DNA from: a virus
DNA: 30,391 bases
Virus record (IMG/VR): IMGVR_UViG_3300032086_001352
Span: 1-30,391 of that record
Strand: one strand, 5' to 3'
Shown here: positions 3,033 to 30,391 of the stretch, in pieces
Position numbering within the stretch: position 1 is the stretch's first letter
Layout of the letters: every line of letters starts with the position of its first letter
Position numbers and translations under genes: made by a program
Notes under the pieces: generated by a model
What the model saw: the letters and a program-made list of their open reading frames with translations, nothing else
Told to the model about the DNA's origin: nothing
The model's database searches: none

Positions 3033-4169
3033 TTATCTTGTGTGTCCTAGTAATAAGTCTGGGTCTTCTTCGTCATTAATATATTCAAATATTTTATCTA
3101 AATACTTTCTTTCCTTGTCGTTATTTAACAATATCCTTTCATCAACGAATAGAAGATCGGTATTATTTGCTAATGCAAGATCAATTAACTCGTCTCTTCT
3201 CTTTTTATCGTAAGTTATTCCCAAAATACTAGGAAAAAGTATGCCATGAATATTTGGGTCACGAATAAAGTCTTCTAGCATTGGTTCCCAATGACAAAAA
3301 CTTAGTTCTAATGGATAGTCTGCCGGAACAATTCCAACATCTTTACAAAATTGTTGCATAACCATACTGGTAACAAAAAATGGTGTAGTTTCACAAAATC
3401 TACTATTCATGTCAATATAATTAATCCATGTTTTATTGGTTTCAATATTGTCTAATGGTTGCCTGTATTCTCCATGTAATCTAAAGTATCCACCAGGTCT
3501 ACGTCTTCCGTAATTACCACCTTTTACAAGTACTCTAGTATCAAAACTCCAACGTGTAATATCAGTATCGTTATTGATATTACCATGTAAGTGTCCTTGT
3601 TGGAACAACCAACTTTGCCCAGGAGATGCAGTACAAGGAATACTATGTTCTAAACACAACTTTTGTATTTCCTGGTAACTTAACTGCTCATCATAAGTCT
3701 TTTGTGTTATCATTCTGCTTTGTTGCCAAGGAAGTATTTGCATAGTATTAGAGCCCCATGCTTCAGTGATTGGACTCCAGATACTAAACATGCCTGGACC
3801 ATGTCCAAACCATATACCTTGATGGAAGTTTAATGTTCTACCATGCTTGGCCTGGTTAGGTATAACTACTCTAACACCAACAACATCTTGAACCATAAAG
3901 TCTGAACCACCTAAACGTGGTCTTGCAATATCTTCTACAAAGTCATCCAACTTTCTTGCAAACTCTTCTGTTTTACAAATTCGTTGGACGTCCCAAACAA
4001 AATCATTTATTTCATTTGGGTCCATGACCTCATGTAATTTTTCAAGTTCAGTTACTTGTGGATATTTTTCCTGTACAGCATCTATAAAATACTGACGCCA
4101 ATTATATTTTTCATGATCATGATCAATTAATTGATTATCCCATTCATAGTTTAACTTGTTTAATTCCAT
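3033..4169 (-). CDS. 2OG-Fe(II) oxygenase-like domain fused to sporadic carbohydrate cluster domain
   Basis: The 378-aa protein appears bipartite. Residues about 90-215 look like a phytanoyl-dioxygenase-type 2OG-Fe(II) domain: VRVVIPNQ, FHQGIWFG (H116), IWSPITEAWGSNTMQILP, then QQGHLHGN (H193/H195) and RWSFDTR (R206). Residues about 260-365 (TSMVMQQFCKDVG, LEDFIRDPNIHGILFPSILG, RRDELI, FVDERILL) resemble the second family of the sporadic carbohydrate cluster. In bacteria these are, as I recall, separate neighbouring genes; here they seem joined. The usual HxD iron motif reads HQG, so the chemistry may differ or the site may be inactive. Context with two glycosyltransferases supports sugar modification. 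AAGGAAG upstream of the ATG supports the start. Confidence 0.6.
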   Translation of the reverse strand: MELNKLNYEWDNQLIDHDHEKYNWRQYFIDAVQEKYPQVTELEKLHEVMDPNEINDFVWDVQRICKTEEFARKLDDFVEDIARPRLGGSDFMVQDVVGVRVVIPNQAKHGRTLNFHQGIWFGHGPGMFSIWSPITEAWGSNTMQILPWQQSRMITQKTYDEQLSYQEIQKLCLEHSIPCTASPGQSWLFQQGHLHGNINNDTDITRWSFDTRVLVKGGNYGRRRPGGYFRLHGEYRQPLDNIETNKTWINYIDMNSRFCETTPFFVTSMVMQQFCKDVGIVPADYPLELSFCHWEPMLEDFIRDPNIHGILFPSILGITYDKKRRDELIDLALANNTDLLFVDERILLNNDKERKYLDKIFEYINDEEDPDLLLGHTR

Positions 4170-7535: not shown

Positions 7536-7684
7536 TATTTTTTCTCATCCTTATACTTCTCTTTACGAGGTATAATTTTAGTTTTATCCTTTTGTACCTT
7601 ATGTCCGAATGGAGTATCGTGAGTAAACAACTGCAAGTGTGACCTTGTAGTATTACTTAACGGCTTTTTAACTTTCTTCGACAT
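7535..7684 (-). CDS. Basic 49-aa phage protein
   Basis: ATG at 7684 lies inside the end of the ferredoxin gene (17-bp overlap) and the frame ends in TAA at 7535-7537. The product is strongly basic, with the core [16 protein letters not shown] and a tail [14 protein letters not shown]. Short proteins with a TPF..K core recur, as I recall, in T4-like marine phages. Tight overlap on both sides argues for a true, translationally coupled gene. Function unknown. Confidence 0.68.
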
Positions 7685-8003
7685 GTTTCTCACCTATTGC
7701 TACTGCTTCTTCTGTACTATATGGACTTTCGTGTGCCATTGGTTCTTTAGTTTCTGTGATGTTTGGCCACACTTGGCTCATTGCATCATTTATTTCTATA
7801 AATGGTATTTGTTCTGCTGGTAGCTCATCATCACTCCAAATTGCTTCTACAGGACACTCTGGTTCACATAAAGCACAATCAATACACTCATCAGGATTGA
7901 TTACCAGCATATCAGGTCCTTCGTAAAAACAATCAACAGGACATACCTCTACGCATTTTGTGTCTTTACACCCAACACAGGGACTACCTACTATAAAACT
8001 CAT
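7668..8003 (-). CDS. fdxA: 7Fe ferredoxin [3Fe-4S][4Fe-4S], FdxA type
   Basis: The 111-aa protein closely follows Azotobacter ferredoxin I. By that alignment C9, C17 and C50 would bind the [3Fe-4S] cluster, and C21, C40, C43 and C46 the [4Fe-4S] cluster. The characteristic [13 protein letters not shown] and [13 protein letters not shown] segments are intact, as is the C-terminal [12 protein letters not shown] motif. It carries single electrons at low potential in the cytoplasm. Possible clients within the window are the radical SAM protein at 13698 and the possible oxygenase, but this is inference. A TTGACT/TATAAT promoter directly upstream suggests early expression. The closest style is proteobacterial, suggesting capture from a host. 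Confidence 0.95.
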
Positions 8004-8085: not shown

Positions 8086-9030
8086 TTATGTTAATGTATG
8101 AATACCTATTATAATACCCATTGATGCCGCAACACCTATCATTAGTTTACCAAAGTCACCTGCTACTATTGGAAATACTTCTTTAAAGTTTTTCATTCCG
8201 CCACTAAATGTAGCAATGGCAAGTTCTCTACCACTTAACAATCCAATGAATACCCATGTTGTTGACATTGGTATATTGTTATACTGCTTAAAGTACCAAA
8301 GTATAACTAAGTACACTAGGTCAATCAATGTAGCACTTTTAACGTAATTAGTATCTGTTTTACTAATAACTACGTTTTGTATTTTACCACCTTGCTCTTT
8401 AAACATCCAACCCATACCAGCAATAAACAATGCTGATATACCTGTTAATGTTAAAGCATCTATTTCACGTGGCAAGAATACAGCCATGTTAGCCATGTCA
8501 TGTGATAACCATGTCCACCACAGCCAACCTGTAACTGTCCATTGTGCTATACGCCAGTTGCGTTCGCTACCACCTAAGTTTACATTAGACATCCACTTTG
8601 TTACGACTGCCCATATGGCATAGGCACTAACGGCCGCTACTCCATATCCAGCAAACGATTTAATTAACATCTTCTCTAATACAAACGTACTAGCAAATGC
8701 ACTTAATACTAAGAACGATGTACTTACTGGTACACCAAACCGTGTTAATACAAGCAATACACCTGGTGCTAATGCATGGTACCATTGTGGTTCCAAGTAA
8801 GGTATTCTGTCTAGTCTGCCGTATGCGATGTCTCCGCCATTAACAGTCCAGCCGTACCATAATGCAAATAACAATACACTACTTGCTCCAAGCCATAGAG
8901 TAGTCCAATCAAACTTGTCTTTGTTTGACTGTATCCATGTGCCTAATGTTTGAATGCTATCGTTAGCGATAACTGTATAAGAAGCGAAACCAAATCCCAC
9001 ACAGGTCCATAGTAGGGTCATTATATCCAT
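8086..9030 (-). CDS. PiT-family-like inorganic phosphate transporter
   Basis: The 314-aa membrane protein has the duplicated signature of PiT transporters. Repeat 1 has ANDSIQTLGT (22-31) and PVSTSF (101-106). Repeat 2 has SHDMANMAVFLPRE (177-190) and IPMSTTWVFIGLLSGRE (253-269). The segment GGKIQNVVISKT before the second PxST box also fits. About nine hydrophobic stretches are visible. The family moves phosphate (or sulfate) with cations across the inner membrane. It is shorter than typical PiT proteins and the two N-D motifs are not canonical (AND and SHD), so substrate is uncertain. It has an AAAGGAG ribosome-binding site, a structured leader, a TATAAATA motif upstream and its own terminator. 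Confidence 0.72.
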   Translation of the reverse strand: MDIMTLLWTCVGFGFASYTVIANDSIQTLGTWIQSNKDKFDWTTLWLGASSVLLFALWYGWTVNGGDIAYGRLDRIPYLEPQWYHALAPGVLLVLTRFGVPVSTSFLVLSAFASTFVLEKMLIKSFAGYGVAAVSAYAIWAVVTKWMSNVNLGGSERNWRIAQWTVTGWLWWTWLSHDMANMAVFLPREIDALTLTGISALFIAGMGWMFKEQGGKIQNVVISKTDTNYVKSATLIDLVYLVILWYFKQYNNIPMSTTWVFIGLLSGRELAIATFSGGMKNFKEVFPIVAGDFGKLMIGVAASMGIIIGIHTLT

Positions 9031-9092
9031 TCTAATCTCCTTTGAGTTAGAACGGTATAAACTTATTACCTAATGGTGTGTCGTATGCGTTC

Positions 9093-9146: not shown

Positions 9147-9154
9147 TATTTATA
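9147..9154 (-). promoter_or_regulatory. Late motif TATAAATA (T4 consensus) upstream of the transporter
   Basis: TATAAATA on the minus strand is identical to the T4 late consensus. It lies 117 bp upstream of the ATG at 9030, giving a leader of about 100 nt, long for this genome. Confidence 0.55.
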
Positions 9155-9163
9155 AAACTAATG

Positions 9164-9328
9164 TTACGACTGTGTTACAAAACTAGCAAGAATAAGCAAC
9201 GATGCAACCGTGCCTAAAAATATTCCTGCTACTAAAAATGCAAATAGAATTATTCGCAAGGGAGATGGATGAAACTGGCCGTCATTTTTACCCACGCCAA
9301 TGACGGCCTGTAATGCTTCTTTGATCAA
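9164..9328 (-). CDS. Single-span membrane protein, 54 aa, no ATG start
   Basis: The frame has no in-frame ATG. The likely start is TTG at 9328, overlapping the TGA stop of the gene upstream (TTGA), so translation could be coupled. The product begins MIKEALQAVIGVGKNDGQFH and has one strong hydrophobic helix (IILFAFLVAGIFLGTVASLL, residues 26-45). A GTG at codon 12 is an alternative start. The coding sense of the TM stretch supports a real protein, but the start is uncertain. Confidence 0.5.
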   Translation of the reverse strand: MIKEALQAVIGVGKNDGQFHPSPLRIILFAFLVAGIFLGTVASLLILASFVTQS

Positions 9329-9513
9329 AAGAGGAATGTATTTAAATACATTACGGCTAACATTAAGCCAAATACTACTACTTGGATTACTGCTGGTATA
9401 ACCACAAACATTTGTAGTACATCAAAGTCTCCTTTCATAAAAAAGTCTGTTTCGAACCACTCTGCTTGTTCTTCAGGTGTGGCTTCTCTTACTTGTGAAT
9501 TATTGGTGCCCAT
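9325..9513 (-). CDS. Single-span membrane protein, 62 aa
   Basis: ATG at 9513 opens a 62-aa protein. It has a charged N-terminus (REATPEEQAEWFETDFF) and one C-terminal hydrophobic helix (LQMFVVIPAVIQVVVFGLML, residues 33-52). The acidic head and single span resemble small subunits of membrane complexes, but no family is recognised. It is part of a run of small membrane proteins from 9164 to 9920. Confidence 0.6.
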   Translation of the reverse strand: MGTNNSQVREATPEEQAEWFETDFFMKGDFDVLQMFVVIPAVIQVVVFGLMLAVMYLNTFLF

Positions 9514-10025: not shown

Positions 10026-11066
10026 TTAGAAATCAAACTCATACCTGTTTATGTTTTTACAATTATTTTCTTCTATAAAATTAAGGAAATCCTCATAAAA
10101 ATTTGTAATTATAGGATCATAATTGAGGTTTCGTTTGTTTGATTTCCTGTTAGGAATAAATTCTGGTACCAAATCTTTTAAAGGTTGTCTATATAAAATA
10201 TCAAACTGATTATATACACCAGTTTCACTTGCAAGTATTTTCTTTAGAGTCTCGAATCCATTTGTTTGAAAGGACTGACATTTTAAGTCTTTTAATATAT
10301 TTTTATACAATAATCCTTTATACTCATAATGGCTTTTTCTGTAAGGTATGTAGTCAGGATTGTGGTGGTTTGATGCTAAAAAATATACTTTCTTATCTTT
10401 TAACAGGTCTATGTTATTTTTAAAACCCAGATAAACTAATTCTTCACTATGATAAAAAATATCTTTTATACATTCAACTTCTATACTTTCACAAAACAAA
10501 TAGTAAGGTGCCATTATGTCCTGAAATACATCTGCACCAACTGGACGAACATTTTTCTTATCCTTTATGCTATCATAGGCAAAAATAGGTATATCCCCTC
10601 CCATTAAAATATGCTGTATGCTATGTTTTTGTTTTAAAATTTTTAAAAAATGAAAATGTAATGCAACTTGTGGAGAAGCATTAAAAAATTCTGCACCATA
10701 TTTGTAGTGCTGAAATGTAGTAAAAAAAGGTTTAAGATCTATATCTATTATATGATGTTTTAGTTTATGACGCTTTGCTATCATTTCAGCGAAATATAAA
10801 TCCTCTGAGTTTACAATTAAATCCCCCCAAAAAGATCTATATGTATATAATGTAATATTTTTATCTAATTGTAAACAGCATTGAAGTATAAACTGGCTGT
10901 CTAATCCACCACTTAATGCTATATTAACGTCCTGCTTATCCTGTAAAACTTTTCCTATTTCCTGTAATATTGTGTTATCAGTTTTCTTGCATTTTATATT
11001 TACATATGGATCTTTAGACAAACTGATTTCTATGCCTGGTAGTTTTACTTCAGTGTTAGGTTTCAT
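10026..11066 (-). CDS. Asparagine-synthase-like PP-loop ATP pyrophosphatase
   Basis: The 346-aa protein has the PP-loop IALSGGLDSQFILQC (SGGLDS, residues 52-57) of the asparagine synthetase B synthase domain. A second ATP-site-like MGGDIPIFAYDS follows. It lacks the N-terminal glutaminase domain, so ammonia or an amine/carboxylate substrate must come from elsewhere. Such free-standing domains include lasso-peptide cyclases, beta-lactam synthetases and sugar amidotransferases. It adenylates a carboxylate and lets an amine attack it. The gene is very A+T-rich, is divergent from the protease gene 82 bp away and lies near two radical-SAM-type genes. Exact substrate unknown. Confidence 0.72.
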   Translation of the reverse strand: MKPNTEVKLPGIEISLSKDPYVNIKCKKTDNTILQEIGKVLQDKQDVNIALSGGLDSQFILQCCLQLDKNITLYTYRSFWGDLIVNSEDLYFAEMIAKRHKLKHHIIDIDLKPFFTTFQHYKYGAEFFNASPQVALHFHFLKILKQKHSIQHILMGGDIPIFAYDSIKDKKNVRPVGADVFQDIMAPYYLFCESIEVECIKDIFYHSEELVYLGFKNNIDLLKDKKVYFLASNHHNPDYIPYRKSHYEYKGLLYKNILKDLKCQSFQTNGFETLKKILASETGVYNQFDILYRQPLKDLVPEFIPNRKSNKRNLNYDPIITNFYEDFLNFIEENNCKNINRYEFDF

Positions 11067-11148: not shown

Positions 11149-12723
11149 ATGGCAGAATACATAATTGAGATGGATTCGTCAGTACATGCAGACGCAACTG
11201 CGGCCCAAACGGCTATTACAAGTGCGGGTGGTTCAATAACTAAAACATATAGTTTTTCCTTAACATATAAAGTTGAGTGTGAGCCAGCAGAGTACGATGC
11301 AATTAACGGTAAAAAATATGGCGAGCTTGTAAGTGCAGAAAAAGTAGTTACACCAGCATTTAATACAAACCATTTAAAAATGATGTGTAATAAAATTGGA
11401 GAGACTACTGTTACATATAATGCACAAAGTAGTGGTAATGGTGAGCATGTATATTTACTAGACACAGGTGTAAATACTGTTCATGATGAATTTTCAGGTG
11501 CTACAGTCAATAATTTATATACAAATTTCAGTACTGATTTTAATGACTCAGACGGTCATGGTACTGTAATGGCAAGTTTAATTGTAGGACAAAACATTGG
11601 CACGGCTAAAGATGCCACATTACATAATGTCAGAATGATGAACTCAAATCCATATACAGGAACAGTTGGTGCAGTTATTGATGCCTTAGATGCTGTTTCA
11701 GTTCATCACAATGCTAATAATCCAAGTCAAACAAAAACTGTTGTGTGTTGTTGGACAACTAGCAAAAACAGTTTAATAGACTCTAAAATAGCTCAATTAG
11801 AAAATAACAATTTAGTTGTTGTTGCGGCGGCGGGTAACGATGGTGCAGATACTGATAACTACTCACCAGCAGGTCTTGATAGTGTACTTACAGTAGGTGC
11901 TATGAATATTAATGGCCACGTTGCAGAAATAGATGGCGGTAAATGTAACCTAGGTGAAGAAAATGATATATATGCTTTAGGTGATAGTGTTTCTGTAATT
12001 AATTTTACTGACAACTCAGCATATACCACAGCAAGTGGTACGTCAGTTGCGGCGGCACAAATAGGCGGACTTGTAGCTCAATATACAGACTTATATCCTA
12101 ATGCAGATTCCTTCCAGACTAAATCATATGTTATTGCAGAAGGAATGGTAGAATTTAAAGGTACAGCAGTATCTTTTGATTCCACTCTTGTTACAGAGAC
12201 AGGAGTAGATGTGACTAAACTCAAAGAGTCAATTGGTGTTAGCCCACAGGTTGACGATATAAGTATATCACCTATTCCATCAGGAATAGTATTAACTGTT
12301 CAAAACGGTCAAAGTGCAAGTGCAAACCTAATGATATATCCAGATGCATCTAATGTAGCCCTTAGTGATTTCAGTCCTCTTCCACCATTTGCAAGTATTA
12401 CTAATGCAGAAGGTGGTAATGTTGAAGTAGGCGAGGTTTATTTAAATATAGATACTTCCAATGCAAGTAATATGGCAAACGTTACTTTACCAGCAGTATT
12501 TCACTTTAGTATTAGAGGTGAGAGAAGTAATGTAATTGTAATTGAGGAATATTCCGTTGGTGTTTATAATACATCAGAGAATGAATTATACTCTGCTTCA
12601 GAATATTACTATGATAGCGAAGAAGCAAGTTACGACCAAGTGGTAAACTTTAATGCGGCCAAGAACCTAGAGAATAACGTCCCTGTAGGTTTAGGGAAAT
12701 ATGCTTTCCACGGTGGTTTATAA
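11149..12723 (+). CDS. Subtilisin-like serine protease (S8 family)
   Basis: The 524-aa protein has the ordered S8 triad: Asp105 in VYLLDTGVN, His137 in DSDGHGTVMA and Ser299 in ASGTSVAAAQ, with oxyanion Asn230 in AAAGNDG. Residues 1-75 (MAEYIIEMDSSVHADA...) resemble an I9-type propeptide that folds the enzyme and is later removed. About 180 C-terminal residues look beta-rich and could bind a substrate or virion. No signal peptide precedes the propeptide, so it acts in the cytoplasm or as a virion component. AGGAG lies before the ATG. It is on the plus strand, opposite to its neighbours, and is followed 11 bp later by the radical-SAM-like gene. It may mature a structural protein or a peptide. 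Confidence 0.9.
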   Translation: MAEYIIEMDSSVHADATAAQTAITSAGGSITKTYSFSLTYKVECEPAEYDAINGKKYGELVSAEKVVTPAFNTNHLKMMCNKIGETTVTYNAQSSGNGEHVYLLDTGVNTVHDEFSGATVNNLYTNFSTDFNDSDGHGTVMASLIVGQNIGTAKDATLHNVRMMNSNPYTGTVGAVIDALDAVSVHHNANNPSQTKTVVCCWTTSKNSLIDSKIAQLENNNLVVVAAAGNDGADTDNYSPAGLDSVLTVGAMNINGHVAEIDGGKCNLGEENDIYALGDSVSVINFTDNSAYTTASGTSVAAAQIGGLVAQYTDLYPNADSFQTKSYVIAEGMVEFKGTAVSFDSTLVTETGVDVTKLKESIGVSPQVDDISISPIPSGIVLTVQNGQSASANLMIYPDASNVALSDFSPLPPFASITNAEGGNVEVGEVYLNIDTSNASNMANVTLPAVFHFSIRGERSNVIVIEEYSVGVYNTSENELYSASEYYYDSEEASYDQVVNFNAAKNLENNVPVGLGKYAFHGGL

Positions 12724-12734
12724 TTTAGAAGTTT

Positions 12735-13706
12735 GTGTATAATATTTGGATAGATTTAACTTCAAAAAATTGTGTTTTTAATTGCTTAGAATCACAGGGA
12801 AGTTTTTGGAACCATAGGTTTGGTAAAAGGAAAATACCTGAAGAGCATATAGACTTTAATGTACTTAAACAGTATCTAATAACTGAAAATCCTGAACAAA
12901 TAATTTTAGATTCAGTTTTTGGTGATCCATTTGAGTACTCCCATATCAAACAATTATTAGAATTCTGTAATTATCAGGATATTAAAATTGTATTTGTTTG
13001 CAATGGGGAATCTAATAACATCCATCTGATAAAAGATTATAATGCATATTGTATTTTTAACTTATATGGATACACGAACACTTACGAAAAAATAATTCCT
13101 GAAGGTAATTTTTCTAAAGTATACGATAATTTACAATACTGTAATAAAATAAATTACTTCTTTTACAAACAAAATTTTATAGACATTGAACATGTTGAAA
13201 AAAATATTTTTAACATTCCGGTAGAATATCAGCCAGGTCCTCTAGTAGATAGAGCCACTCGTATAAATCATATTTTTGATAGTAAAGGAGAATGGTTATA
13301 TGACGTTTTACTTTCTGACTATCTAAAACAACCACATATATCTAATTATGAAACCCTTAAAACACTTAAAAGTGATAATAACTTTGTAAAAACAGTTGCT
13401 GGATATCATTTAATTAAAAAATATTTAAAACCTATAGAGGGAAAAGGAATTTTAGATTTCTCAGTTATGCCAAAATATCCGCCTGTTACTGCATCGATTC
13501 TAGAATCTGGAAATCCATTTAATTTATCTGAGCATCAGACAAGTATTACATATAAAGGACATATTTTAAAAAATATATCGATAAGAAACTTAATTACAAA
13601 CACTTATATACCTGATTGGGACTATGATGAGCTTTTATCCCAAAAAGGTTCTCGACAACAATTTGAACTGTCTAAGTTTGTTAATAATGAAAAAATATCA
13701 ATCTAG
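12735..13706 (+). CDS. Radical-SAM-like protein with degenerate cluster motif
   Basis: The frame starts at GTG 12735; the frame is closed by a TAG just upstream, so no longer start exists. The 323-aa product begins MYNIWIDLTSKNCVFNCLES. The layout of strand, cysteine motif, IPEEHIDFNVLKQYL, PEQIILDSVFGDPFEYSHI and KIVFVCNGES follows a radical SAM barrel, including the GEP-like GDP. The cluster motif reads CxxxCxxS (C13, C17, S20), so the third iron ligand is missing. It may be a non-catalytic partner of the radical SAM protein encoded convergently at 13698, with which it overlaps by 9 bp. Base composition is strongly A+T-rich. Family assignment is by motif order only. Confidence 0.5.
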   Translation: MYNIWIDLTSKNCVFNCLESQGSFWNHRFGKRKIPEEHIDFNVLKQYLITENPEQIILDSVFGDPFEYSHIKQLLEFCNYQDIKIVFVCNGESNNIHLIKDYNAYCIFNLYGYTNTYEKIIPEGNFSKVYDNLQYCNKINYFFYKQNFIDIEHVEKNIFNIPVEYQPGPLVDRATRINHIFDSKGEWLYDVLLSDYLKQPHISNYETLKTLKSDNNFVKTVAGYHLIKKYLKPIEGKGILDFSVMPKYPPVTASILESGNPFNLSEHQTSITYKGHILKNISIRNLITNTYIPDWDYDELLSQKGSRQQFELSKFVNNEKISI

Positions 13707-14732
13707 AGTTTTTGTTATAGATATATCACTTATGTTATTACAAAATGCATAAGGGCATGTAGTTTTACTCTGCGGTAAATTCCAATTAGTATCTGATATA
13801 TTTCCAAAGTTTACAGCACCACACCAACTGCTATACATATCTCCACTGGCATCTATATTAAGACTTTCAAATCCTAAATGACATCTCATACCCTGAAAAC
13901 TGTTTAGTCTCTTGTCTATAATTTGATGGCTTTGAACATAAGTAGCGGTACCATCATCATATAAGAATTCTGTCATCCAGGCATTTGGATCTGGCTTAGG
14001 CTCTGGAAATTCTTCTGCATCTGGTATATTTAATTTTTCTCTTTCTGGTATAATTTGCTGTACAATGCCTGGCTTTTTTAACACTTCTTGCTCTTCTGTA
14101 GTGTATTGCCAATATGTTTCCTGTTTGTTCTGGCGTCCTAAGAGCTTCTTATACATGGTTTTAACACATATACTTACCATGTTGTAATCATTATGTTTAC
14201 AGCCTTTAAATAAATCACGTAATTCATCTGCAAATTCGCCCAATTTGAGCACGTCTCCGCCTATTCCAGCAATGTTTATGTCAATGTGTACATAATCCTT
14301 AATTTCGTTTATAACTGCTTTAAAATGCTCGGAATCTTGTGATTGGGGATGGTACGTTAGAATTACCTTATCCATATAGTGTTTTGCTTTACTCCACCAA
14401 TTGGTTGTTCTACTTGCATTGGTATACACTATGCTGGTAGAGTTGTTCTCACTTATTGTTTTTATAATGTCTTCAAAGCCTGGTATAACAGTAACTTCAC
14501 CGCCTATTAATTCATACTCTGTCTGTTTGTCTAATGCTTTGTAATGCGTAGACAGTCGTTTTATTGCGTCTATGTACTGCTGTTTACTTAACCAAGGCTT
14601 GGTTCCATTGTGTAAAATAGGAGGACAATATTCACATTCGTAATTACATGAATTACCCATGTTCCATTGTATTCTTATTATATTATTAGTATTTCTGGCG
14701 TGGGGGCCACGAACAGAAACTAGATTGGACAT
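13698..14732 (-). CDS. Radical SAM protein with SPASM-like C-terminal cysteines
   Basis: The 344-aa protein has the canonical CxxxCxxC motif in GNSCNYECEYCPP (C29, C33, C36), followed by a GGE motif in YELIGGEVTVIPGF. At the C-terminus C284, C304, C326 and C331 (MRCHLGF, SGDMYSSWCGA, TTCPYAFC) could bind an auxiliary iron-sulfur cluster, as in SPASM or twitch enzymes that modify peptides. It needs a reductant, and a ferredoxin is encoded at 7668. It follows the PAAR gene by a one-base stop/start overlap, so it is co-transcribed with spike-tip and RNR genes. Substrate unknown: a virion protein or a small peptide are candidates. Confidence 0.82.
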   Translation of the reverse strand: MSNLVSVRGPHARNTNNIIRIQWNMGNSCNYECEYCPPILHNGTKPWLSKQQYIDAIKRLSTHYKALDKQTEYELIGGEVTVIPGFEDIIKTISENNSTSIVYTNASRTTNWWSKAKHYMDKVILTYHPQSQDSEHFKAVINEIKDYVHIDINIAGIGGDVLKLGEFADELRDLFKGCKHNDYNMVSICVKTMYKKLLGRQNKQETYWQYTTEEQEVLKKPGIVQQIIPEREKLNIPDAEEFPEPKPDPNAWMTEFLYDDGTATYVQSHQIIDKRLNSFQGMRCHLGFESLNIDASGDMYSSWCGAVNFGNISDTNWNLPQSKTTCPYAFCNNISDISITKTLD

Positions 14733-27284: not shown

Positions 27285-27857
27285 TTAATAAACACCTTTA
27301 CCAAAATCAAAACCTTTAGTTTTCTTCTTTTTCTTTTTCTTCTTTTTACCTGGCATCATACTACCTAAAAATGCATACCCTCTGCTAACAGGAGCATCCA
27401 TACTAGGAGCATCACTAGGCGTGGAATCAGCGGAACCAGTGTCGCCACTGACTGCAGACCCGCCGTCTCCACTTGAACTTGTTGACCCACCGTCGCCACC
27501 AGCACTTGCTCCTGCACCTGCACCTGCACCGCCACCAGCACCGCCGCCACCAGCACCGCCGCCACCACCGGCTTCTGCATTCAAACGTTGTCTGTCATTT
27601 AATAACTCATCTATCATATCTATAAGTAACTCTATATCTTCTTCATCATGAAAATTTTCTATTACTTCTAATTTTAATCCTGCGAGATATTTGTCTAATT
27701 CTTTGTTATTAATTTGCTTACTTTTTCTTTGCAATTCTGCTATGTGGTTAATTAGGCCCTGTTGATCTCCTTTATTATAATAGTTCTTTGCTTTTATAAC
27801 AAAATCACTATCAAAAGTAGATGTGTATATGTCTTCATATAGTTGTCTTATTTTCAT
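27285..27857 (-). CDS. Glycine-rich low-complexity protein with poly-lysine run
   Basis: The 190-aa product begins MKIRQLYEDIYTSTFDSDFV, with LYE as a possible prohead-protease site. A helical domain of about 95 residues follows, then a 50-residue Gly/Ala/Ser stretch, and a tail with GKKKKKKKKKTKGFDFGKGVY. The linker and basic tail suggest a flexible DNA- or capsid-binding protein. It overlaps the upstream large gene by 4 bp. Both the Gly repeat and the A-rich lysine run are prone to length changes. Confidence 0.68.
   Translation of the reverse strand: MKIRQLYEDIYTSTFDSDFVIKAKNYYNKGDQQGLINHIAELQRKSKQINNKELDKYLAGLKLEVIENFHDEEDIELLIDMIDELLNDRQRLNAEAGGGGGAGGGGAGGGAGAGAGASAGGDGGSTSSSGDGGSAVSGDTGSADSTPSDAPSMDAPVSRGYAFLGSMMPGKKKKKKKKKTKGFDFGKGVY
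27509..27573 (-). repeat. GC-rich simple repeat encoding Gly/Ala linker
   Basis: Imperfect units of CACCTG and CCACCAGCACCGCCG type run through this stretch and stand out as a local GC peak in an A+T-rich genome. It encodes the Gly/Ala linker of the protein at 27285-27857. Confidence 0.75.
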
Positions 27858-30391
27858 GACCTAACTCCTATTTGTGGATAAGGATATATATTATTTTTAC
27901 TAACAAGGTAAACTGTATTTACATTTAGGTTTAAATCTTGCACTTCTTGTTCTGTTCTTACATAGTTAATAGTTTTGGTTTGCTTATCCATGAATATTAT
28001 ACCCTCAAGGTCTCCTTCACTTCTTTTAATATTTAGATAGTTTAGAATATTATATTTTCCATATACTTGCCTAAATTCTACATCATTTCCTGCCTGAAGT
28101 AATTTGAGAAGGTGGCCGATTCGTTTTTTATCTAATGCTGTATTAGTTGCTTGTATTATACCTGCTGTACTGCGTAATGCTTTTTTCTTTCTTGCTGGGT
28201 CAGTTGCTAGTTTAGGATTCTGTAACATTTTAATATGCATCGCACTATTTAATCCTGTTGTAGGCATATTAGCAACTTCTTCTATATCAGCAAAGTCTAA
28301 TTTAAATCCTTCCACTTTGCCTGACCAAGTTGCATCTGGTTGTACATGATAGTCCTTAAACCTGGCATCTTTTGCTGTTTTAGTTTTTAATTCTATATGG
28401 CTTCCGTCAATAAGTAAGTCTCCTTTACCTTTACCTGAACCAATACCTGTAATTTTACTGCTCAGTGTAGCAAGTAAAAACTCACCAGCACCTATACCCT
28501 GACCTATAACGTCTGATAGGTCATCAATAAATTCTGTAATATAATCCTCTTTTCCATATCCTATAAACACTTCTGAGAAATCATACTTACCACCAGATAA
28601 TAGTTTTGTAGTATCTACAAGTTGATCTTTTTTCCATTTTGCAAGTAGTTGAGCTCGTTCTAAATTTGTCATTTCTAAACTAGCAATCATTTTAGCAATC
28701 TTTAATTGATTTCTTCTTACTTCAGCATCATCTATGTCGTCTAATTTTAACATAATACTTTTTAATCTACCACCTACACCCATATCATCTAACAAACCAT
28801 CTATATATTGAACAATTCTATCTGTTTGCGAGTCGTCATCTGGTAAATCTTCAATCTTTTGTATTACTTCGTCTTTATTTTCTACTAACTTTACATCTTT
28901 TTTAACTTCAGGATGTAATTGGCTACTTGCATAACTTCTTAAAATACTTCTTAAATCTGCTTTATCTCCTGACTTACCTCTTACTGCTCTAAAATCTGAT
29001 AGCATTTGTGGTATAGGCAATGCCCAGAAGGCGTCCATTTGCTTTCTTAAATCTCCTGCCTCCATGGGTTCTGATAATAATTTGTTTAATAGATATGGTA
29101 TACTATTATCAGGCAATGCATCACTGCTAGGACCTTCGCTTCTTTTACTTAAATTTTCCAATACTTCTGATTGCTCTACTATTCTTAACTGTTCTACTAA
29201 TGGTAGTTTATCAAATTTGGTAAAGATACTTTCTTGTGATAATGGAAATCTTGCCGCATTTACGGCACCCATAAAAGTATCAAAAGGTCCATTAAGTCTC
29301 AATATTGATAAAACTTCTTTCTTAAAGTTGTTGTCTTGTTGAGGATTGTTTAAAAATGCTACCAATTTATTTACTTCGCCTCTTGGTAAGTAATTCTGTA
29401 TTCCCTGTTGCATCATAATATTAAACAATCTGTGTTCCCTGGCTTTATCGTAATCTGTATTTGTCGAATCTGAACTTCCATATACTCCGCTTACATCATC
29501 ACCTTTGCCACCGTCTGCATTTTTTCTAAAATAGTTTCCAGCACTGACTTTGTAGTTGTTTCTGATATATTTTTCTGCATCTCTTACTGCGGCACCCCAT
29601 CTTGCTAATCCAACTAGATTGTTACCTTCAGAGTCAGTACCTGCTCTCCACATGGGGTCGCCATCATACTGTTGATATACTTTTCTCAATAAATTTATAC
29701 CTTGGTCATTTACACCACGTTCTATTCCTAAATAGTCTGCTAGATTGCCCCAATCTGTTTCACCTGCTATGCCATTTGAGGAACCACCATCGTCTGGTTC
29801 AATACCAGCCGCTATGGCTAACTTATCTAATGGTTTGCCCATGTCTTCTGGATTTATTTCTACTTTGCCATCAAGTACTTTTTTAAGAATGTTTTCTAAT
29901 GCTACTTTAAAACTTCTTTCATTGTTGGCCATTTCTTTTGCAACAACGTCTTTCATTTTTGCTGGGTAATGTTCCCAATCAAATGCATCAAAACGTTTTT
30001 GCTCTGCCTCGTCATCCATATTCTCCCAACTTATGCCATAACTTCTGTTTAATGGCTCTCCGCTTTTGGGATTTTTTGTTTCTTCATCAGGAAATAAATC
30101 GTCTTGTCCAGGTGCACCTTTTCTGCTGTCACCTTTGTGGGAAATCTCAATACCGATATTTTGTAATTTTTGGTATACATCACCATCGCCTTGAATAAAC
30201 TTATCTTGGTCAATTAAGTCCTTCCAACTATAACCATATATTCTATTGAATCTATCTAATATTCTTTTATACCCTTTTTTACGCCAAGTGTGATAATAGT
30301 TTTTGTTTTTTTCAAAAGTGTCTATGAGTTCTAAGCCATTAGTGGCATCCTCGGCATCACTCCAGTGACTGGAAGGTATAACATATACTTT
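27854..30391 (-). CDS. Very large virion-associated protein with PD-(D/E)XK-like C-terminal domain, N-terminus cut by window edge
   Basis: The frame is open without a stop from 27854 to the right edge (845 codons), beyond the internal ATG at 30019, so the true start is outside the window. The N-terminal part seen has two related phrases, FNRIYGYSWKDLIDQD and LNRSYGISWENMDDE, suggesting an internal duplication. The middle is helical and acidic. About 190 residues from the end GKGDLLIDGSHIELKTK fits a PD-(D/E)XK nuclease core (GD...ExK). It ends by overlapping the Gly-rich gene by 4 bp. A virion-carried nuclease or DNA-binding protein is possible; function is not known. Confidence 0.7.
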   Translation of the reverse strand, partial: KVYVIPSSHWSDAEDATNGLELIDTFEKNKNYYHTWRKKGYKRILDRFNRIYGYSWKDLIDQDKFIQGDGDVYQKLQNIGIEISHKGDSRKGAPGQDDLFPDEETKNPKSGEPLNRSYGISWENMDDEAEQKRFDAFDWEHYPAKMKDVVAKEMANNERSFKVALENILKKVLDGKVEINPEDMGKPLDKLAIAAGIEPDDGGSSNGIAGETDWGNLADYLGIERGVNDQGINLLRKVYQQYDGDPMWRAGTDSEGNNLVGLARWGAAVRDAEKYIRNNYKVSAGNYFRKNADGGKGDDVSGVYGSSDSTNTDYDKAREHRLFNIMMQQGIQNYLPRGEVNKLVAFLNNPQQDNNFKKEVLSILRLNGPFDTFMGAVNAARFPLSQESIFTKFDKLPLVEQLRIVEQSEVLENLSKRSEGPSSDALPDNSIPYLLNKLLSEPMEAGDLRKQMDAFWALPIPQMLSDFRAVRGKSGDKADLRSILRSYASSQLHPEVKKDVKLVENKDEVIQKIEDLPDDDSQTDRIVQYIDGLLDDMGVGGRLKSIMLKLDDIDDAEVRRNQLKIAKMIASLEMTNLERAQLLAKWKKDQLVDTTKLLSGGKYDFSEVFIGYGKEDYITEFIDDLSDVIGQGIGAGEFLLATLSSKITGIGSGKGKGDLLIDGSHIELKTKTAKDARFKDYHVQPDATWSGKVEGFKLDFADIEEVANMPTTGLNSAMHIKMLQNPKLATDPARKKKALRSTAGIIQATNTALDKKRIGHLLKLLQAGNDVEFRQVYGKYNILNYLNIKRSEGDLEGIIFMDKQTKTINYVRTEQEVQDLNLNVNTVYLVSKNNIYPYPQIGVRS

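Follow-up and report, generated by a model that had tools for sequence, protein, structure and literature searches.

Can a phage carry a complete phosphate permease of its own, and would phosphate be the substrate that such a permease imports? These questions are raised by one gene in IMG/VR virus record IMGVR_UViG_3300032086_001352, of which the whole stretch analysed, 30,391 nucleotides in length, is called the window throughout. The gene is located at 8086..9030 on the minus strand (stop codon included), begins with ATG, and would encode a 314-residue PiT-like transporter, as judged from its open reading frame, a family alignment, a sequence profile and an AlphaFold model. A Shine-Dalgarno-like AAAGGAG (9037..9043, minus strand) stands six bases before the ATG, and the plus strand over 8086..9030 contains many stops.

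Virus-borne genes with related presumed purposes are known. The cyanophage auxiliary genes pstS and phoH presumably serve phosphate supply during infection, but PstS contributes no more than a periplasmic binding protein to the ABC importer of the host, whereas the window gene would specify a complete permease. Phosphate permeases of the PHO4 superfamily are carried, as in the window, by algal viruses, namely prasinoviruses and coccolithoviruses (PMC3429862; PMC6163359); unlike the window protein, those copies are 459-534 residues long and close to the proteins of their eukaryotic hosts (PMC6163359). Monier et al. (2012) described a phage-derived pho4 on a 1139-nt Pacific clone, JF837193, where it adjoins an ORF that at that time had been seen in cyanophages alone (PMC3429862). 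That clone is a caveat to the statement, made in an initial annotation of the window, that marine phages more often carry PstS or PhoH.

Family assignment from profiles, fold and motifs

The initial annotation had called the product PiT-like and proposed a search with the Pfam PHO4 family (PF01384), for which the curated gathering cut-off is 33.7 bits. The outcome was divided. The window protein alone matched nothing in Pfam (PHO4 included), PHROGs or NCBIfam, so that this search, taken at face value, would have refuted a PiT assignment. Its relatives did match PHO4, at scores below the cut-off: eight of 14 close relatives (best E 1.7e-4) and, best of all, the more distant L132 (27.4 bits, E 2e-6). 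A family profile, A2, composed of 23 phage and bacterial relatives was compared with the whole PDB and matched a single protein, the Thermotoga maritima sodium-dependent phosphate transporter TmPiT (PDB 6L85; PiT/SLC20, TC 2.A.20), at E 8.3e-6. When the family profile was compared with a profile of 12 canonical PHO4 proteins, the match was significant but weak (E 5.5e-5 in the expected register, at a probability of 66%), both alignments being thin.

The predicted structure leads to the same family. The AlphaFold (AF2) model of the window protein (pLDDT 80.5; helices from H3-24 to H282-313) superimposes on 6L85 with Z 20.0 over 289 aligned residues at an rmsd of 3.6, and the next family scores Z 6.1. 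The comparison with PiT structures suggested at the outset thus recovers the predicted fold of TmPiT from end to end. Foldseek with the same model placed two chains of 6L85 first (probability 1.00, E 1e-3), and a structure search of BFVD found no structural relative.

Four motifs can be read along the protein. The first repeat contains V-I-A-N23-D24-S-I-Q-T28-L-G30-T31 and G-V-P101-V-S103-T104-S; the second contains L-S-H177-D178-M-A-N181 and I-P254-M-S256-T257-T258. Every numbered residue is invariant across an alignment of 23 rows, 15 of them phage, whose members are 51-87% identical to the window protein, and the motifs are therefore no chance occurrence. Their order, ND / PxST / xD / PxST, is that of PiT proteins, and the first three are in register with canonical PiTs in the profile alignment. 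The duplicated ND...GT and PxST signatures that had first been noticed in these 314 residues are confirmed in order and conservation. Comparison of the two sequence halves by profile gave no match, so the two repeats rest on the motifs and the fold.

TmPiT likewise has its ND and PxST motifs in duplicate and arranged in this order, yet it is only ~14% identical to the window protein and has ~400 rather than 314 residues. The window protein also differs in falling below the PHO4 gathering score, in carrying HD in repeat 2, and in having F and W in its two repeats at the place, after PxSTT, where most canonical proteins have His. The earlier description of the motifs as altered holds only in part: HD in place of ND is also seen among canonical PHO4 proteins (NGxHDAAN), though there in repeat 1. 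By sequence and predicted structure, then, the window protein is a divergent PiT-like transporter, and the PiT label is borne out by a profile match to 6L85 alone, by the fold, and by the PHO4 scores of its relatives. Since it shares fold and motifs but its sequence places it outside Pfam PHO4 as curated, we call it PiT-like.

Phosphate importers in SAR11 and the likely substrate

SAR11 are the most abundant bacteria of the ocean. Relatives of the transporter are encoded in 262 stretches of cellular genomes, and the best 80 of these 262, at 54-56% identity, belong to SAR11 and two gammaproteobacteria. In searches of the phylum (398 genomes) and of the gammaproteobacterial class (369 genomes), the family was almost absent outside SAR11 and a few gammaproteobacteria with small genomes. 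The SAR11 protein (for example L077 of HTCC9565, or L174 of genome G412) is 55-56% identical to the window protein over its full length and has the same motifs; unlike the window protein it is cellular, stands on a separate branch of the tree, and in some genomes lies beside pst-pho genes or beside arsC and MIP genes. It is named by none of the annotation libraries searched, and we found no paper that names it or describes the Pst exclusion reported below, in a literature search that omits most subscription journals.

One set of 147 Pelagibacterales genomes was searched for the PiT-like family and for PstC, PhoU, RecA and PHO4. The PiT-like family is present in 24 genomes and PstC, over its cut-off, in 105, and the two rarely occur together: PstC was detected in 1/24 carriers of the PiT-like gene versus 104/123 non-carriers (Fisher p 2e-14). 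PhoU follows the same pattern (1/24 versus 105/123). RecA, as a control, is equally frequent in both groups (21/24 and 106/123), and incomplete assemblies therefore do not explain the PstC contrast. Canonical PHO4 was found over cut-off in only two genomes (G408 and G431), neither of them among the 24 carriers. None of another 21 carrier genomes had PstC over cut-off; this second set includes three gammaproteobacteria and shares four genomes with the first. In the SAR11 isolate HTCC9565, which has the PiT-like gene, PstC likewise did not reach its cut-off. The exclusion is also spread over the phylogeny. Across a RecA tree built from 80 of these genomes, the PiT-like gene switches between presence and absence at least 12-15 times. 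Among 12 phylogenetically independent pairs, PstC went the other way in a mean of 9.1 and in none did it go along with the PiT-like gene (median p 0.004). About 19 of the 147 genomes (G417, G441, G445 and G535 are examples) lack both the PiT-like gene and a PstC over cut-off, so that the pair does not explain all SAR11; those genomes must have still another phosphate route, or gaps in their assemblies.

The genes surrounding the SAR11 copies bear on the substrate as well. G412 is the sole PiT-like carrier with Pst among the 147 genomes, and there (L174, 2012-10147) the PiT-like gene diverges from phoR-pstS-pstC-pstA-pstB-phoU-phoB across 76 bp. In two other loci (L182, 5446-6520; L184, 6290-7364) an arsenate-reductase-like (arsC-like) gene and then a MIP channel gene directly precede it. 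Arsenate enters cells through phosphate importers, and an arsenate-reductase-like neighbour is thus what would be expected beside a phosphate importer that admits arsenate. The MIP channel gene alone adjoins several other SAR11 copies, and a glycerol uptake facilitator has been reported in the phosphate islands of HIMB59 (PMC10734472). PhoB-box-like sites above chance were found upstream of neither the window gene, the SAR11 copies nor the G412 PiT-like gene; the single close match, in phage locus L103, falls within the upstream gene.

A PiT fold does not by itself fix the substrate. The family can change substrate, as in Bacillus subtilis CysP, a PiT-family sulfate transporter, and the principal substrate here could be another oxyanion, sulfate as in CysP or else arsenate, with an indirect link to Pst. 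That precedent, the departures from canonical PiT motifs, and the arsenate-reductase-like and MIP channel genes beside some SAR11 copies all speak for such a transporter, which we nevertheless regard as unlikely. Uptake of sulfate or arsenate would hardly account for a Pst system that has been replaced many times independently, with PhoU absent too, or for the position of the G412 gene beside a pst-pho operon, and SAR11 are known to lack assimilatory sulfate reduction. Taken together, the exclusion of Pst and PhoU, the pst-pho neighbourhood and the arsC and MIP neighbours make phosphate much the most probable substrate of the SAR11 protein. For the phage protein, we infer phosphate from homology to the SAR11 protein at 55% identity with fully conserved motifs; the cellular relatives that supply the substrate evidence, at ~55% identity, lie across a deep branch of the tree from all phage copies. 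The substrate, which the initial annotation had left open, is narrowed to phosphate by the Pst exclusion and the pst-pho neighbourhood of these relatives.

Phage copies, their neighbours and a possible barrel partner

IMG/VR contains 41 loci encoding relatives of the transporter at 50-98% identity; the 50,697 deposited phage genomes contain none. In an unrooted maximum-likelihood tree a single branch (support 100/100) separates all phage from all bacterial copies, and the phage copies are therefore not recent captures from hosts. This separation could also be taken to mean that the phage protein has lost transport and persists as a membrane protein in another role, such as superinfection exclusion or membrane remodelling. 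Small membrane peptides encoded upstream in the window would fit that role: a possible one of 54 residues with a TTG start (9164..9328, minus strand), and one of 62 residues (9325..9513, minus strand), 85% conserved in the sister contig L102. Loss of transport appears improbable to us, as it would not be expected to leave the motif residues unchanged in all 15 phage rows, which reach down to 51% identity, nor the reading frames intact in many divergent complete phage copies. The 62-residue peptide was also considered as a copper transporter (Ctr), and this was dropped, the match (E 0.0065) being below cut-off.

That the window is phage DNA, as first annotated, is upheld by nrdA and nrdB genes that match phage families (PHROGs 84 and 86), by genes for a PAAR protein and a phage-type exonuclease, and by L102, a 63.5-kb IMG/VR viral contig collinear with the window over nearly all genes compared; T4-type capsid genes also adjoin the transporter in related loci. 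In view of these features a bacterial fragment or mis-binned contig is very improbable, even though cellular relatives exist and the transporter and its neighbours at 3033-4169 and 27854-30391 have no match in deposited phage genomes.

Around the window gene, a T4-type late-promoter octamer, TATAAATA, lies ~117 bases upstream of the ATG (9147..9154, minus strand). The octamer occurs three times in the whole window against 7.1 expected by chance, and without enrichment the late-promoter reading of this copy is only suggestive. The next gene downstream encodes, by family matches, an FdxA-type ferredoxin (7668..8003, minus strand), relatives of which are found in 5 of 50,697 phage records. It adjoins the transporter in the window and L102 only, and was dropped as a functional partner. 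Farther upstream, an asparagine-synthase-like protein (10026-11066, minus strand) and a radical SAM protein (13698-14732, minus strand) are encoded on either side of a 524-residue subtilase (Peptidase_S8, E 6.5e-21) with a long C-terminal extension (11149-12723, on the plus strand, opposite to most window genes) and an uncharacterised 323-residue ORF (12735-13706). These four genes could form a peptide-modifying group.

In 21 phage loci, many of them near copies and about ten distinct, the transporter gene has beside it a gene whose small product is predicted to be an outer-membrane barrel. The barrel gene is immediately upstream in 20 of these loci, often with touching starts and stops, and immediately downstream in L121. 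Its products are small, secreted-looking and beta-rich, and fall into two families, c1 (~100 residues) and c8 (~181 residues). With Phage_OMP (PF24653; cut-off 27 bits), c1 member L117 scored 34.4 bits (E 2.9e-8), over the cut-off, and L105 scored 18.0 bits, below it; L104 and L110 gave no match to this model. The c8 family has no Pfam match, and its structural model, weak at pLDDT 55, is beta-rich with outer-membrane porins among many of its best structural matches. Close relatives of the window have c1 (L104, L105) or c8 (L103) beside the transporter, and the partner thus appears exchangeable between the two families. Neither gene is present in the window or L102, and in the window the putative 54-residue peptide occupies the place of the barrel gene. 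In L024, from a gammaproteobacterium, the gene immediately after the transporter encodes a Porin_4 protein. We infer that transporter and predicted barrel form a two-membrane uptake unit in the related phages. The Pacific clone JF837193, as described, could be such a transporter-barrel cassette.

Two further arrangements were noted by eye. In another phage group (L129, L132, L133, L137) the transporter gene, without a barrel gene, lies between primase-like and ThyX-like genes. In L103 (4543-8720) and L116 (3149-6183), curli-like genes and a gene for a CHASE2-like protein are near the transporter, and this gene set is similar in the two loci (clusters 46-49, 51).

Proposed role during infection

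The gene product would be a compact secondary transporter of the PiT fold, composed of two repeats that each contribute an (N/H)D and a PxST motif. We estimate a probability of roughly 75% that this transporter imports phosphate for the phage during infection by means of an ion gradient. The phage copy would bring inorganic phosphate through the inner membrane of the host, probably driven by Na+ by analogy with TmPiT. An infected cell in phosphate-poor water could in this way supply virion DNA synthesis without the ATP-driven PstSCAB of the host, and the phage importer would also bypass regulation of PstSCAB by PhoU and PhoB. In many related phages the joined predicted barrel gene may provide a pair for uptake across two membranes, a partner that the lineage of the window is without.

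A broader proposal, to which we give even odds, is that an unrecognised PiT branch repeatedly replaces PstSCAB-PhoU as the phosphate importer of SAR11, and that marine phages carry a long-diverged branch of their own, frequently paired with an exchangeable barrel in a cassette for two membranes, to take over uptake in infection. The SAR11 PiT-like gene would offer an answer to how cells without Pst are supplied with phosphate. Phages of marine waters carry a whole putative permease, beyond a binding protein alone, and the counts of phosphate genes in surveys of marine viruses and SAR11, as made with PF01384 and Pst models, would change.
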